Positions 14,401 through 20,797 of a stretch of 25,275 nucleotides of DNA are shown one piece after another; positions within the stretch are counted from its first letter, which is position 1, and each line of letters begins with the position of its first letter. The notes beneath the pieces are model-generated. The model saw only the letters and a list, made by a program, of their open reading frames with translations. It was not told the origin of the DNA and did no database searches. Origin of the DNA: a virus; the IMG/VR virus record IMGVR_UViG_3300025133_000554, positions 1 through 25,275 of that record; one strand, given 5' to 3'. The position numbers were made by a program, and so were the translations under genes.

Positions 14401-14964
14401 AACACACTCAGAGGCAAGAAATGTTTTATCTCTAGTTCCACCTTGACCTGTCCATTTAACTTCAAAACCTTCGCCTTGAAGATTCATATCAAAGGTATTA
14501 TACTCTCCCGAAGCAAGGGAAACATAAATTCCTTCTACCTCACCTATGAAATTATTGTAATCAATTAAAGCTATCGAGGATGCAGTCGTACCCGATGTCA
14601 TTGTGAACTCGTGAGTTCCGTTTGTGGTTTTAGGTGAAGATTGTGTACCATTTAAACTTACACTAACCCCCCCTTGGGTGACATTTTTTAATACTAAAGT
14701 TACTTTATAGCTAGTGCTGTCCGATAATCCTGGCGATGAAGTCGTTGTTACTGATAAGGATGGTTGTGATCCATCGAAACTTAACGCACCATTACCTTGA
14801 TTGTTTATCCAAGTTACACCTGATGCTAATATCCAACCTGTACTACCCGATAAGAAACTAGGGTTTAAAACATATTGAATATAATCTTTTTTCCAAATTT
14901 CGGCATACCAAGTTGTTCCCTTTTCCCCTTTTATTTGGGTTTCTTTAAATTTTCCGTAAGCCAT
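11485..14964 (-). CDS. large tail-tip / fibre protein with inserted carbohydrate-binding-like module
   Basis: A 1159-residue virion protein made directly after the tape measure gene, where tail-tip proteins are encoded. Residues 1-30 (ending AEIWKKDY) and about 152-270 (FDMNLQGEGFEVKWTGQGGT; LASECVLNLFIQN; WWFGYLQPSFDSIENVPFPY; TATDSYGFY) look like one conserved tail-tip domain. It is interrupted at about 31-151 by a beta-rich module starting LNPSFLSGSTGW that resembles CBM4/9-type carbohydrate-binding folds. The middle (about 400-970) is Ser/Thr-rich beta structure. Residues from 981 (GSDTQVQFNDGGAFGAEATF) form the common phage-fibre stem motif, followed by a C-terminal head of about 110 residues ending in RIILNKV. 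It probably binds the host surface. The inserted module is inferred from pattern. Confidence 0.8.
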   Translation of the reverse strand: MAYGKFKETQIKGEKGTTWYAEIWKKDYIQYVLNPSFLSGSTGWILASGVTWINNQGNGALSFDGSQPSLSVTTTSSPGLSDSTSYKVTLVLKNVTQGGVSVSLNGTQSSPKTTNGTHEFTMTSGTTASSIALIDYNNFIGEVEGIYVSLASGEYNTFDMNLQGEGFEVKWTGQGGTRDKTFLASECVLNLFIQNQDDEDWIYNDVFMKGDKYHFIRIYKNTVSDANLWWFGYLQPSFDSIENVPFPYSVKLTATDSYGFYSKLKKSNFGTEAIKNTPHRIKDILLDIGSKMSLANTSTDDDTPVPVMRNWLRTSVDWWRTADTYQSDDPFNIYKAAKGAFAPESEFDEDGVITNIDEALTYKGSEVFDGVLKTFNTVGFLAEGYYYFIQPNSLADNTTATLKAWQYRNSAIGGVDVGDITPLLTIDQSNNVILGGSSFNYEPSFEGVTANYILGDSTFFISPGADLTTSFVAGGIQVPADTDEYFTLNFHAIHQEQITTADFSFTSFNPTPSIDIPSTVRNSSFLTTATAIISITDGTTTKYLQPSPSPISSADNNLVWTASGTPLSLTIKRGYNAQGGLSSVYAVGDTSNYILEQGGLIYDDSQGPCSRNTYPNDSTPHYKFRTDIYFSANVDAPGIQGSVSVQVTASNDYSEVYEYGYGPTYDLTGYTINTLNDPTPTSTTTTCGDISLYFSGNSEYNNTASEYEYSAIQSQIPSNESFSLGSIVLGSSQLNELYSIQYENSSGINTPAMEFQRGNPTPDDPKNITQLLVNEYLSLQIEPLEILQADIQSADISPLKLIKYSINNDGTYKYYVFMGGSFKAQSEIMSGEWYKINSQASYVTEPTPAPTELISSPEQIIANPSVYNEITFSLDNTTKAKLLDEAYGVLDADLTTASSTNKLELSDNSKGKIYDNQKIRLSFPDGSNSTIVTSDGDNLTSSDQINIDTFTPRMIYPSGSIISPLSYDLTNVIGGGSAPAGSDTQVQFNDGGAFGAEATFEYDKTTNFLTADNIEGQFFGINIGDRTAISGSNLYYHLNPNDFNLTKSYRNFSYTSDEGGSSQQRYDSGAKERYAMVFLPKGYEIHSLHVHGSTANQMALGKSDFDSDTVTAIQSGYVNTLLTLTTAEVVGNDTYYIISVKNSSSTDKLYGARIILNKV

Positions 14965-17491: not shown

Positions 17492-18164
17492 TATTCAATC
17501 TTTATTTTCTTTGGTTCTATTAGTTTATATCTTTTTAAGACTTCTTGAATTTCCTCTTTACTAGCAACGTCTTTTTTAACTTTATTTTTACTATCCCAAG
17601 GGAAAGGCATTAACTCTTTTGGTTTAACCTTGTGCTTAGAGTGTGGTACGATGGCTGCGTGAACAATCATTCTAGTTTGTTCCCAATTATTCTGAGATAA
17701 TTGTTCATTGTATTTTTTGAACCCTATAAGTTTATTGTTAAAGGAACGTGGAGTGTAATCATATAAATTTTCATCTGATAACCCCAACATTCCTAAACCA
17801 ATTTCTTCTAACTTATCCCAATCGATTTCACCTGTATCTTTATCTATAATTTCCTTTCCCTCTTCTACTTTCCCTTTTTCTGAGGTTGGTCTAATTGGAA
17901 CGCTTCAAAGATTTCATTTATTTTACCGAAATCTTCATTGTCTATCCATTGTTCAATATCTCGAACTTTGTATTTAAACTCTTCTCCGTTCTTCTTAGCA
18001 CCGTATTTTAGACCGTAGTAAGCGATAATACCAACGTGGTCTATCTCTGTTCCTAACTGATCCATTTCGTTTAACTTTAATTTACAATCGTTACAGATGT
18101 CTTTTAAAGCTAAATAGCTAAATCTAATAGGTCGTTTTTGACCGCCTATTTCTACCTTTTTCAT
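17491..18164 (-). CDS. tail assembly chaperone GT, made by -1 frameshift
   Basis: A predicted 224-residue fusion: the 99 residues of the upstream chaperone, then a -1 shift at GGGAAAG (17868-17874), then 125 residues starting VEEGKEIIDKDTGEIDWDKL. The shifted frame has no stop until 17491, and it includes the stretch beginning MLGLSDENLYDY at 17790, which would otherwise look like a separate 99-residue gene. The same arrangement (G and GT in lambda) is known in many siphoviruses: the long form binds the tape measure and recruits tail-tube subunits. The T part ends basic (YKLIEPKKIKIE) and its stop overlaps the tape measure start. The frameshift itself is inferred from the site and reading frames. 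Confidence 0.85.
17865..18164 (-). CDS. tail assembly chaperone G
   Basis: A 99-residue protein, MKKVEIGGQKRPIRFSYLAL onward, with LKDICNDC near residue 20 and helices with YYGLKYGAKKNGEEFKYKV and IEQWIDNEDFGKINEIFEAF. It has the length and position (between tail tube and tape measure) of a GpG-type chaperone. It ends QLDQPQKKGK, with TAG at 17865-17867 directly after the slippery heptamer. It would hold the tape measure soluble and is absent from the virion in known systems. The gene starts 34 bases after the tail-tube-like gene upstream. Confidence 0.85.
   Translation of the reverse strand: MKKVEIGGQKRPIRFSYLALKDICNDCKLKLNEMDQLGTEIDHVGIIAYYGLKYGAKKNGEEFKYKVRDIEQWIDNEDFGKINEIFEAFQLDQPQKKGK
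17868..17874 (-). other. -1 frameshift slippery heptamer G GGA AAG
   Basis: The zero-frame codons at the end of gene G are CAG AAA AAG GGA AAG TAG. G GGA AAG keeps the X XXY YYZ phase exactly and is the heptamer used by lambda G/GT. The bases just before it also give A AAG GGA in the same phase, so two overlapping slippery sites precede the stop. Confidence 0.85.
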
Positions 18165-18197: not shown

Positions 18198-19940
18198 TTA
18201 TAAAACTTTCTTTAGTGATATTGAACTTAGCCAAATTGTTGTAGCCCCTGATACTCGTTGTATTGTTAGTTGGGTAGTGTCAGGTTTTAACAAAGCAGTA
18301 TAAGTACCTGTTGTAGTAGCTTTCAATAATACTACATCTGTAGATTCCCATCCATCCAAAACAGATATTGCTCCTGCCGTGCTTGTACTTGCAGTAAAAG
18401 TTAATAAATAATAATCTCCCACTACCATTAAACCTGAACGATAAATACTTGTATCATCGCCTGTGGTAATAATCTTACCATAACCACTTTCTACAACACT
18501 ACTAGCACCTGCTGCTGCATCATTTACACTCCACCAAGCTCCTGTATCTACTCCTACTGTACCTAAATCAAAGGTAGTGTCACCAATAAGTTCAGGACCA
18601 AGTCCATTCGGATAGATTTGACCTGTACCTGTGAAACTAGCCGAACAAGTTAAATTATCTTCGACTCCTGCATCAAAACTTACCGATGATACAAGTGCGT
18701 TACCTTGCCAATGTGTAATATCGGTAGGGTCTTGATAATCGGTTGCTTCAGGTGTTGTTTCTATTTGCCAAAAGCAAGTGTAAATAGAATCTGATGATTG
18801 AGCATTAGCTACACCTGGATATAGATTAAATATAAATGATGAATCACCATTTGTAATATGTATAGGCAAAGTTAAAGATATAGCTACCCTAGTCCAAGTA
18901 GAGGTACTTAATCCTGTCACTTTCCTCGAATTTAAACTACCTATAGCCTCTATAGTACCTTGTCCTGATATTATTTCATCTGAATAACCTATATCTTGGG
19001 TTACTGCGTAAGCATCTTCCGATGGTGTACTCATCATTATCCAACTAGCACTTGTCGTACTTCCACTACCTTTAACCCAAAAAGACCAAGTAATTTTTTT
19101 ATCTTCTAATCTAGTAGCATCAATAGTGTATGAAAGCCTATCCCAATTAGTAGTTGTGCTTGTAATTTGACTAGCAAAGTTTGTTCCGTTTTCGTCAAGT
19201 TGTAAATTACTTTGTGTTACACTTGATATACCAAACCCATCAACCCCACTTTGAGTAAGGTTAGTGCGAATAATATTTCTAATCCTATCAGAGAAACTTA
19301 AATCGACTATACTTCTTGCTTGTAGTTTATCGAAAAAATCAGTACCATCTAAAGGTGTATCAGGATTTATTGATTGTAATATATCAGTAGATACCTCAAA
19401 AGACTTTAAACCTGCCAAAGACTCAGACCATCCGTCTGAATCCTTGTTGGTTATATCTCTTAAATCCATATTCGTGCTAAACGAAGCTGATGTACTATAA
19501 GCTACAGGGTCAAATATTGCACTTGAACCAGGGGTAACTATTTCTATGTTAACAGCGTTTTCGTTAAGAGTTGCTGTGCCATCTACAATAGATAGTGTAG
19601 GTACTAAACCAACTGCACCATTCGTGAAATCTCTATAGGTATAGTCACCATCTGTTTGGTCTGAACCTGAAGAATCAACATAATCATACGTTGCAGATGT
19701 AAGTACAGCAGTTATAGCCGCTAAAACAGTAGCACCTGTATTGGTACTAGCTGCTGTAGATATATCATCATAAATAACACCCGCATCATTAGTAATGTTG
19801 TTTATTTTAACAGTACCAGTAGTTCCACCATCAGGAACAGTTATAGGATCAGTAGTTAATACCCTAATCCTAGTAACCTGTGCTGCTGCCGCACTCGTCT
19901 TAGCATAAACCAATAAATCCGAAGCGTTTTTAATTGCCAT
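18198..19940 (-). CDS. tail-tube paralogue with three large insertions, CBM-like
   Basis: A 580-residue protein whose core is a duplicate of the 135-residue tube protein encoded just upstream. The matching parts are MAIKNASDLL (1-13), then STSASFSTNMDLRDITNK to AGLKSFEVSTD (about 143-222), and GNALVSSVSFDAGVEDNL to SFTGTG (about 408-445). Between and after them are three additions: about 14-142 (beta-rich, Thr/Asp-rich), 223-407 (NWDRLSYTIDATRLEDKKIT then WSFWVKG, resembling a LamG/CBM-like jelly roll) and 446-580 (starting GPELIGDTTFDLGTVGVDTG, ending LSSISLKKVL, resembling a carbohydrate-binding module). It could be a minor tube subunit that shows sugar-binding domains on the tail surface, or a terminal tail protein. 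The homology of core segments is visible; domain identities are inferred. Confidence 0.78.
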   Translation of the reverse strand: MAIKNASDLLVYAKTSAAAAQVTRIRVLTTDPITVPDGGTTGTVKINNITNDAGVIYDDISTAASTNTGATVLAAITAVLTSATYDYVDSSGSDQTDGDYTYRDFTNGAVGLVPTLSIVDGTATLNENAVNIEIVTPGSSAIFDPVAYSTSASFSTNMDLRDITNKDSDGWSESLAGLKSFEVSTDILQSINPDTPLDGTDFFDKLQARSIVDLSFSDRIRNIIRTNLTQSGVDGFGISSVTQSNLQLDENGTNFASQITSTTTNWDRLSYTIDATRLEDKKITWSFWVKGSGSTTSASWIMMSTPSEDAYAVTQDIGYSDEIISGQGTIEAIGSLNSRKVTGLSTSTWTRVAISLTLPIHITNGDSSFIFNLYPGVANAQSSDSIYTCFWQIETTPEATDYQDPTDITHWQGNALVSSVSFDAGVEDNLTCSASFTGTGQIYPNGLGPELIGDTTFDLGTVGVDTGAWWSVNDAAAGASSVVESGYGKIITTGDDTSIYRSGLMVVGDYYLLTFTASTSTAGAISVLDGWESTDVVLLKATTTGTYTALLKPDTTQLTIQRVSGATTIWLSSISLKKVL

Positions 19941-19964
19941 AATTAATGGATTTAAAAGTTAATA

Positions 19965-20372
19965 TTATGCGTTAATGTCTAGTTCTCCAGTTCCTGTTAA
20001 AGAGATTGAATAAGTTGCGTTTTCTTCTACACCTGCATCTATAGAGATTGAAGTGATAAGTGCTGTACCATCATAAACCATACCTGAAACACCAAATGTA
20101 CATTGTACAGCCGCTCCTGCAAATAATGTATCAGTTAATTCAAGTATATCTGCTCCTGTAGCACCTGATACTTCAACGAAAGCATCACCACTCATTTCCC
20201 AAGATTTAAGACCACCTAAGTTGTCTTGCCATCCATTTGAAGATTTTGTTGTAGAGTCACGAAGATCCATATTCATAGATATTGAAGCTGAAGTACAATG
20301 AGCTACTGCTTCTAACGTACCACCATCAGGTGTTATACTTAAAACTACGTTTGTTGCGTTTTGAATTGCCAT
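19965..20372 (-). CDS. major tail (tube) protein
   Basis: A 135-residue protein that fits a siphovirus major tail protein by size and place: after the tail terminator and before the chaperone. Visible segments: CTSASISMNMDLRDSTTK (26-43), SNGWQDNLGGLKSWEMSGD (about 45-63) and ITSISIDAGVEENATYSISL (106-125), then TGTGELDINA. The SxSxxMDLRD...GWxxxLxGLKSWExSGD pattern is known from tail-tube proteins of Bacteroidota phages. It should form stacked hexamers around the tape measure. The longer paralogue follows 24 bases downstream. It is the smaller of the two and, being undecorated, is more likely the main tube subunit. Confidence 0.85.
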   Translation of the reverse strand: MAIQNATNVVLSITPDGGTLEAVAHCTSASISMNMDLRDSTTKSSNGWQDNLGGLKSWEMSGDAFVEVSGATGADILELTDTLFAGAAVQCTFGVSGMVYDGTALITSISIDAGVEENATYSISLTGTGELDINA

Positions 20373-20386
20373 AATTCCTTTTTATT

Positions 20387-20797
20387 TTAGTTTTTAATAA
20401 TTAAACAGTTAAAATTTATGTTTTTGTAGAACTTTTCGGGTAATTTATAATATTCGTCATCTAAGTCCGTAAACCTAAATTTAGCAATATAATCTACACC
20501 ATCCTCGGTATATTCTACCTCGAACAAGTCTAAAGCTTCTACAACTGCTTTAGCTTGATTATATGTTGTTGAATAGCTATCTGCAAAACAAGCAATCCGT
20601 ATTGATACATCACACGAGTTAAGTGAGCCACCTTTAGATAGAAAATTTGAAACATTAGCTATCTCAAATGTTGTGCAAGGGTAAGCCACTCCTTGTGGTA
20701 TGATTACAGGAAAAACCTTATCACTACCATTAGCAGAAGTAAAGGCTGCTGTAGCCTCTAATCTTGTAACTATCTCTTTTCCTATTACTGCAAACAT
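20387..20797 (-). CDS. tail terminator / DUF3168-like tail completion protein
   Basis: A 136-residue protein of the kind annotated DUF3168. FAVIGKEIVTRLEATAAF gives the N-terminal helix; VFPVIIPQGVAYPCTTFEIA (28-47) has the strand-Pro-strand pattern of the family; then CDVSIRIACFADSYSTTYNQ (63-82) and a final KFYKNINFNCLII strand. These proteins cap the tail tube and join it to the head connector. It lies one base after the HK97 gp10-like gene and 14 bases before the tube gene, as expected for the order adaptor, gp10-like, terminator, tube. Confidence 0.78.
   Translation of the reverse strand: MFAVIGKEIVTRLEATAAFTSANGSDKVFPVIIPQGVAYPCTTFEIANVSNFLSKGGSLNSCDVSIRIACFADSYSTTYNQAKAVVEALDLFEVEYTEDGVDYIAKFRFTDLDDEYYKLPEKFYKNINFNCLIIKN

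Follow-up and report, generated by a model that had tools for sequence, protein, structure and literature searches.

The tail operon and its tandem tube genes

The window, by which the whole stretch of DNA analysed here is meant, is 25,275 bases long and represents one uncultured virus record. Two genes for tail tube proteins lie next to each other on its minus strand, a plain tail tube gene encoding 135 aa (19965..20372) and a decorated paralogue encoding 580 aa (18198..19940). The coordinates and lengths given for both genes in an earlier note on this DNA were right; the strand was absent from it. Upstream of the pair, the same operon includes genes for the major capsid protein, an adaptor, a head closure protein and the tail terminator, the last of these (136 aa, 20387..20797, minus strand; phrog_347, PF11367) being undecorated in the window. 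Downstream, the tube genes are followed by a pair of small chaperone-like genes, then by the genes for the tape measure and for a probable tip protein of 1159 aa. This is a small siphovirus-type tail operon, and its order of terminator, tube, chaperones and tape measure is that of tail tube loci of the Phage_tail_2 / TP901-1 type.

A slippery heptamer, GGGAAAG, in frame for a -1 shift, was found at 17868-17874 of the window (minus strand), at the end of a chaperone-like gene of 99 aa (17865-18164). The heptamer was present in all 113 relatives checked, and in 109 of these the -1 frame stays open for more than 100 codons into the next gene. The same heptamer, GGGAAAG, is that of G/GT in phage lambda. 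A frameshift at GGGAAAG thus seems to occur in the tail operon, in the chaperone genes and not in the tube genes. Outside the tail operon, the segment 692-1345 (minus strand) encodes a GP88-family protein (PF17338, E 2.8e-36).

Relatives of the replication protein are overwhelmingly from Flavobacterium, and also from Cellulophaga, Maribacter and Tenacibaculum phages. Given this predominance of Flavobacterium, the host would be flavobacterial, and the virus probably belongs to a group of marine flavobacterial phages. In a search for cultured relatives among 50,697 phage records, the long protein had no match, and the plain tube matched 164 records at one place each, with no tandem pair at that sensitivity. 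Two scans of genome contigs identified no relative, and therefore no host genome or prophage.

Relationship between the two tube proteins

The 135-aa and 580-aa proteins of the record are 42% identical over residues 4-94 (E 2.5e-17) and 55% identical in a second block, residues 100-132 (E 8e-8), and a profile-profile comparison of plain and long tubes gave a probability of 99.9% (E 3e-36, 90 columns). Both proteins match phrog_1407 ('major tail protein') and PF06199 (Phage_tail_2), the latter at 55.4 bits for the plain and 26.3 bits for the long tube, against a cut-off of 23.8 bits. PF06199 was matched by all 35 aligned short tubes, and the profile of the short-tube family matched the solved RcGTA tube, Rcc01691, over its full length (E 2.8e-5). 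In a tree of the core, short and long copies form two separate clades (SH-aLRT 100), which argues for an old duplication and against chance resemblance; the duplication therefore predates the sampled diversity. Together, the matches within the record, PF06199, phrog_1407 and the separate clades bear out the tandem tail tube paralogues that the earlier note had recognised.

When 56 second tubes are aligned, the core of the long protein (all minus strand) consists of block N with the N-terminal arm and first strand (residues 1-13, 19902..19940), block B with beta2, the stacking loop, beta3, the helix and beta4 (residues 143-222, 19275..19514), and block C with beta5-beta6 (residues 408-445, 18606..18719). 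The additions, also on the minus strand, are designated I1 in the beta1-beta2 loop (residues 14-142, 19515..19901), I2 in the beta4-beta5 loop (residues 223-407, 18720..19274) and CT, a C-terminal module (residues 446-580, 18201..18605). This supports the view that the long copy holds a full tube core with additions at two loops and the C-terminus. Positions T27, S28, S30, D39, T41, K43, S45 and G47 are invariant in short tubes, and the counterparts T150, S153, D162, T164, K166, S168 and G170 are invariant in long tubes. In the alignment of second tubes, M1, A2, I3, N5, A6, S7, D8 and L9 at the N-terminus are invariant as well.

In plain tubes from loci with a single tube gene, the beta1-beta2 loop (short-tube alignment columns 10-24) is about 7 residues shorter than in two-tube loci, which may reflect only kinship.

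A graded series of second tubes in related phages

Distinct short/long pairs were counted from 80 loci found in the short-tube search and 77 from the long-tube alignment. A complete second tube was found in 78 of 95 distinct records with a plain tube, and was of ~255 aa (core and I1) in 26 records, of ~430 aa (core, I1 and I2) in 13, and of ~570 aa (core, I1, I2 and CT) in 39. The second tube is cut by the contig end in four records, two more end too soon to tell, and it is absent from 11 loci that have sequence beyond the plain gene and otherwise the same gene order. One tube gene only is present in three whole records of 28-30 kb. The lack of a second tube in the 11 loci and in the three whole records is as expected of an accessory gene.

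The borders that the earlier note had drawn for the insertions (14-142, 223-407 and 446-580) match the length steps in this series, with relatives that lack exactly I2 and the C-terminal block and others that lack exactly the C-terminal block. I1 is present in every second tube found. In the core tree, the I1+I2 and I1+I2+CT classes form one joint group (support 90) within which they are intermixed, and I2 appears to have been gained once.

In one relative (L018:6430-8035), the second tube is split into two overlapping frames of 440 and 105 aa, with the break right where CT begins. L018 and L101 are one contig, and its split long gene is attributed to a frameshift or an assembly error.

Nature of the insertions

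An AlphaFold2 model of the long tube, built on 47 sequences, places I1 in the beta1-beta2 loop, I2 in the beta4-beta5 loop and CT beyond the final strand. Its tube core is of low confidence (pLDDT about 50-60). I1 was modelled with a pLDDT of 94.7 alone and about 90 in the full model, I2 mostly with 80-97 and weaker stretches, and CT with about 75-88 over most of residues 475-580.

The best PDB matches of I1 were the D2-D3 domains of FliD and the sheaths of Mu and E217, all weak (E 0.015-0.2). I1 is of another kind than I2 and CT, and is probably structural, sheath/FliD-like. A Foldseek search with the whole long-tube model returned tandem CBM22, CenC-like phage proteins and other CBM-bearing proteins, in output that does not print the matched query stretch and with low global TM-scores, which are expected because only parts of the model match. 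By this whole-model comparison, I2 and CT have CBM-like folds, I2 being a CBM-like jelly roll. Thus, of the proposal that the last two additions look like jelly-roll carbohydrate-binding or LamG-like modules, the CBM-like fold is supported and a specific match to LamG was not obtained.

Pfam offered no convincing name for I1, I2 or CT, and neither I2 nor CT matched a named CBM family by sequence. I2 showed a weak sequence match to the RcGTA head spike fibre, Rcc01080 (E 0.056). CT is homologous to an insert in the terminator of relatives (hhalign 95%, E 3.4e-8), and one of these terminator-insert homologues matches CBM_4_9 (E 2.7e-6). Given the CBM-like folds, and the homology of CT to a module family with a CBM_4_9 match, it is reasonable to infer that I2 and CT bind sugar.

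Homology between I2 and CT themselves was unsupported (hhalign 0.1%), and a search for tandem repeats found none. Foldseek matches to insecticidal proteins were read as matches to their CBM-like domains and not as similarity to toxins. Nonlabens phage P12024S, also matched by Foldseek, was set aside as a parallel, as the protein that carries its modules is a putative tail fibre, not a tube.

Decoration elsewhere in the tail

The tail terminator is ~136 aa in most relatives and 272-280 aa in eight, where one loop includes a CT-type module. The full long tube is present in five of these eight loci. The CT profile also matches the tip protein of one relative (L006). Sequence comparison therefore indicates that decoration is spread over the tail, beyond the tube.

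The long terminators are those of L061 (5168-5995), L064 (4730-5572), L059, L123, L124, L132, L136 and L138. CT-like modules also form separate genes between the portal and the protease region, one of 148 aa near the portal with a single module (L026:1304-1750), the other of 277 aa with two (L105:324-1157). The tip protein of the window has an extra domain, residues 28-153 (14506..14883, minus strand), that is missing from relatives such as L091 and L073, and its homology to CT was unsupported by hhalign. In the tip protein of L061 (9638-12373), residues 128-212 match Lcl_C (PF07603), which is apparently inserted beside a CBM-like stretch.

Decorated terminators in the same phage family would also suit an arrangement in which the long paralogue forms one special ring, either at the tip in the manner of an 'evolved Dit' or beside the terminator, and not along the shaft. 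Dits share the tube fold and carry CBMs in their loops (PMC7291167), and the genes downstream of the tape measure gene include no evident Dit gene of its own. However, the long gene adjoins the tube gene and precedes the chaperone and tape measure genes, whereas an evolved Dit is an essential initiator encoded after the tape measure gene. The 11 loci with no long gene in an otherwise identical gene order likewise argue against an essential initiator ring, and a special ring is considered unlikely. Since DSR2 recognises a phage tail tube protein (PMC10981675), the long protein might instead be non-structural and act as a decoy, such as for tube-sensing defence proteins. It is hard to see what a decoy would gain from two large CBM-like modules that belong to the family found on the terminator, and the gene sits in the late tail operon; this idea is judged highly improbable. 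Both the Dit role and the decoy role were ranked below a mixed tube, in which plain and decorated subunits would be combined.

Apparent exchange of modules

Within the I1+I2+CT class, the mean pairwise identity is 86% for the core but 57% for I1, 48% for I2 and 52% for CT, and for most sequences of this class the nearest relative differs from module to module. Diverged as they are relative to the 86% core, and with nearest relatives that often differ, the inserts look like independently exchanged cassettes. For example, L022 and L029 are 94-100% identical in the core and 88% identical in I2 at the nucleotide level, but 71% in I1 and 61% in CT, and L036 and L050 are 73-89% identical in neighbouring genes but only 39% in the long tube. 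Short tubes with 92-95% identity can have long-tube partners that differ in class. On the short-tube tree, at least 19 changes of partner class are needed, compared with 41 for shuffled labels, the former value being an estimate only, as the tree is poorly resolved.

These patterns bear on the question of whether the inserts mainly stabilise or shape the tube with no sugar binding, as would be the case if they acted like domain2 of the YSD1 tube, which binds the neighbouring subunit (PMC8718954). Such a role would fit I1, which no second tube found here lacks and which resembles domains of sheaths and of FliD filaments. However, divergence and reassortment are far stronger in I2 and CT than in the core, which would be unlike buried structural parts, and modules of the CT type are found again on the terminator and in a gene of their own. 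A mainly structural role for the inserts is therefore rated as improbable, and glycan binding is the preferred role for I2 and CT.

Leader motif of the long gene

A conserved motif, TTAACTTTTAAATCC, precedes the long gene at 19948..19962 (minus strand). It includes the 5' arms of a possible hairpin, TAAATCC (19948-19954) for an inner helix and AACT (19957-19960) for an outer helix. TAAATCC is the reverse complement of GGATTTA (19914..19920, minus strand), the inner 3' arm, which is formed by the last base of codon 7 and codons 8-9 of the long gene; the outer 3' arm, GGTT, is at 19908-19911 on the same strand. The start codon of the long gene (19938-19940, minus strand) would lie in the hairpin loop, and the stop codon of the plain tube is just upstream of the inner 5' arm. 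In 78 of 82 cases, the short stop and the long start are 24 or 25 nt apart.

Across 78 distinct leaders, codon 7 is TCG in 74, codon 8 is GAT in 76 and codon 9 is TTA in 78, and the synonymous sites at codons 6, 10 and 11 vary. Where codons 7-9 encode Ser-Asp-Leu, TCG GAT TTA is used in 74 of 76 distinct cases as compared with an expected 3% of triplets (TCG makes up 6% of serine codons in these genomes), though the sequences are related and this contrast is not a probability. In the two sequences with Ser7 replaced by Thr (ACG) the pairing G is kept, and in one clade (L150 and L246) both arms are lost together. Other gaps in the operon are variable, the motif is absent after the tube gene in single-tube loci, and its core occurs only once in any locus with the motif.

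The helix was predicted with a median probability of 1.0. Covariation is almost absent because the arms hardly vary, the folding z-score (-1.65) is ordinary, and random recodings fold equally well in a median of 16% of cases. Predicted openness from -8 to +3 is the same for the long (0.76) and the short gene (0.78), as the long start codon sits in the loop. The case for the putative hairpin is the joint conservation of its arms, not folding energy. No Rfam family matched positions 19800-20100 up to E 1.

The arms also make an inverted repeat in the DNA, phages exchange the second gene and its modules with one another, and upstream bases outside the helix are also conserved. The conserved arms could accordingly be a DNA site, serving as a recombination anchor or a protein-binding inverted repeat and unrelated to dosage. 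However, the motif brackets the start codon at a fixed distance, and the neighbouring synonymous sites vary freely. A DNA site is thus considered rather unlikely, and an RNA hairpin is preferred. Flavobacterium has no Shine-Dalgarno sites, and mRNA structure near the start codon tunes initiation (PMC6847099).

A proposed mixed tail tube

The stepwise lengths of the second tube among relatives, the apparent reassortment of its modules and the conserved leader with its probable hairpin go beyond what the earlier note had described. These features would fit a mixed tail tube of two subunits, in which a decorated minority subunit displays glycan-binding modules outwards and a hairpin limits its translation. 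Based on sequence comparison, structure models and analogy with known phages, this explanation is given an even chance of being correct.

In such a tail, the short protein would form the bulk of the tube. The long paralogue could join the rings because the whole tube core is retained, including the N-terminal arm and the ring-stacking loop, and its subunits would enter the tube as a minority. I1, I2 and CT, inserted at sites that hold additional loops or domains in known tubes (PMC8718954), would be carried outwards on the long subunit. I1 would probably be structural, whereas I2 and CT would face outwards and probably bind host-surface glycans, which could keep the particle on the cell before the tip binds. 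By sequence, the modules differ between otherwise near-identical cores as though they had been swapped within a fixed frame. The hairpin around the long start, 24 nt after the short stop, would probably limit initiation at the long gene, so that decorated subunits stay in the minority. A ribosome ending on the short gene may open the hairpin and so couple translation of the long gene to it.

More tentatively, the duplicated tube gene may be viewed as a display platform with three sockets for swappable domains, its dose set by a start-codon hairpin that is opened by ribosomes finishing the plain gene, giving a two-form tail free of frameshifting.

The natural series runs from loci with no second tube to second tubes with one, two or three additions, with a plain tube that is nearly the same throughout, and what tail decoration is for can thereby be tested directly. 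The apparently independent exchange of modules points to adaptation to the host surface on the shaft of the tail as well as at its tip, and, if the leader hairpin sets the subunit ratio, this would be a new kind of control of virion composition.

Comparison with known systems

Extra parts in known tubes include a long beta1-beta2 loop in lambda, a beta4-beta5.1 loop in 80alpha and C-terminal Ig domains (PMC8718954). The tube protein of YSD1, YSD1_22, likewise combines, in a single subunit, an N-loop, a domain inserted beside helix 1 and an Ig domain at the C-terminus (PMC8718954). Hence, the statement that three additions in one subunit are unusual is roughly right, but with a precedent in YSD1. 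YSD1_22 differs in being a single tube protein as described, in having an inserted domain that binds the neighbour, and in the site of this domain, which is between helix 1 and beta4, whereas I2 is between beta4 and beta5. In JBD30, the major tail protein gp44 also has a decoration domain within the tube protein (residues 88-175; PMC11445458), but this is a single Ig-like decoration on all subunits. The RcGTA tube, Rcc01691, is the closest minimal solved tube to the short family; it is undecorated, and no second tube was matched there. Evolved Dits have a tube-like fold with CBMs inserted in loops (PMC7291167), but are part of the initiator complex, whereas the long gene precedes the tape measure gene and is absent in some relatives.

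An undecorated twin, the other feature that had been called unusual, is less so, as mixing of plain and decorated forms occurs by frameshift in SPP1 and the 936 phages (PMC8718954, PMC6669499). In the literature, a search for two tail tube paralogues identified only podovirus 'tail tube A and B' or unrelated cases, a weak absence as few subscription papers were covered. The Bacillus phage SPP1 has plain (gp17.1) and decorated (gp17.1*) tube subunits, as predicted here from the genes. SPP1 gp17.1* is dispensable and was proposed to touch cell-wall carbohydrate (PMC8718954), but is made by ribosomal frameshift with one C-terminal FN3, whereas a second gene with up to three extra domains is found here. 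Three length groups of tube proteins also occur among the 936 lactococcal phages with MTP and TpeX, in which the Ig-like and CBM extension of TpeX gives a mixed tube by frameshift and its CBM was shown to bind host cells (PMC6669499). The TpeX extension is entirely C-terminal and arises by frameshift; the long tube described here is a separate gene with its own ATG, for which a frameshift origin of the gp17.1* or TpeX type does not apply, and has arisen by duplication; its additions include insertions into loops, and its CBM-like folds belong to another family. By analogy, the long tube therefore resembles SPP1 gp17.1* and 936 TpeX in function, but is built by gene duplication. Tails that mix plain and decorated subunits are made by frameshifting in Gram-positive phages, and the same end seems to have been reached here via a duplicated gene.
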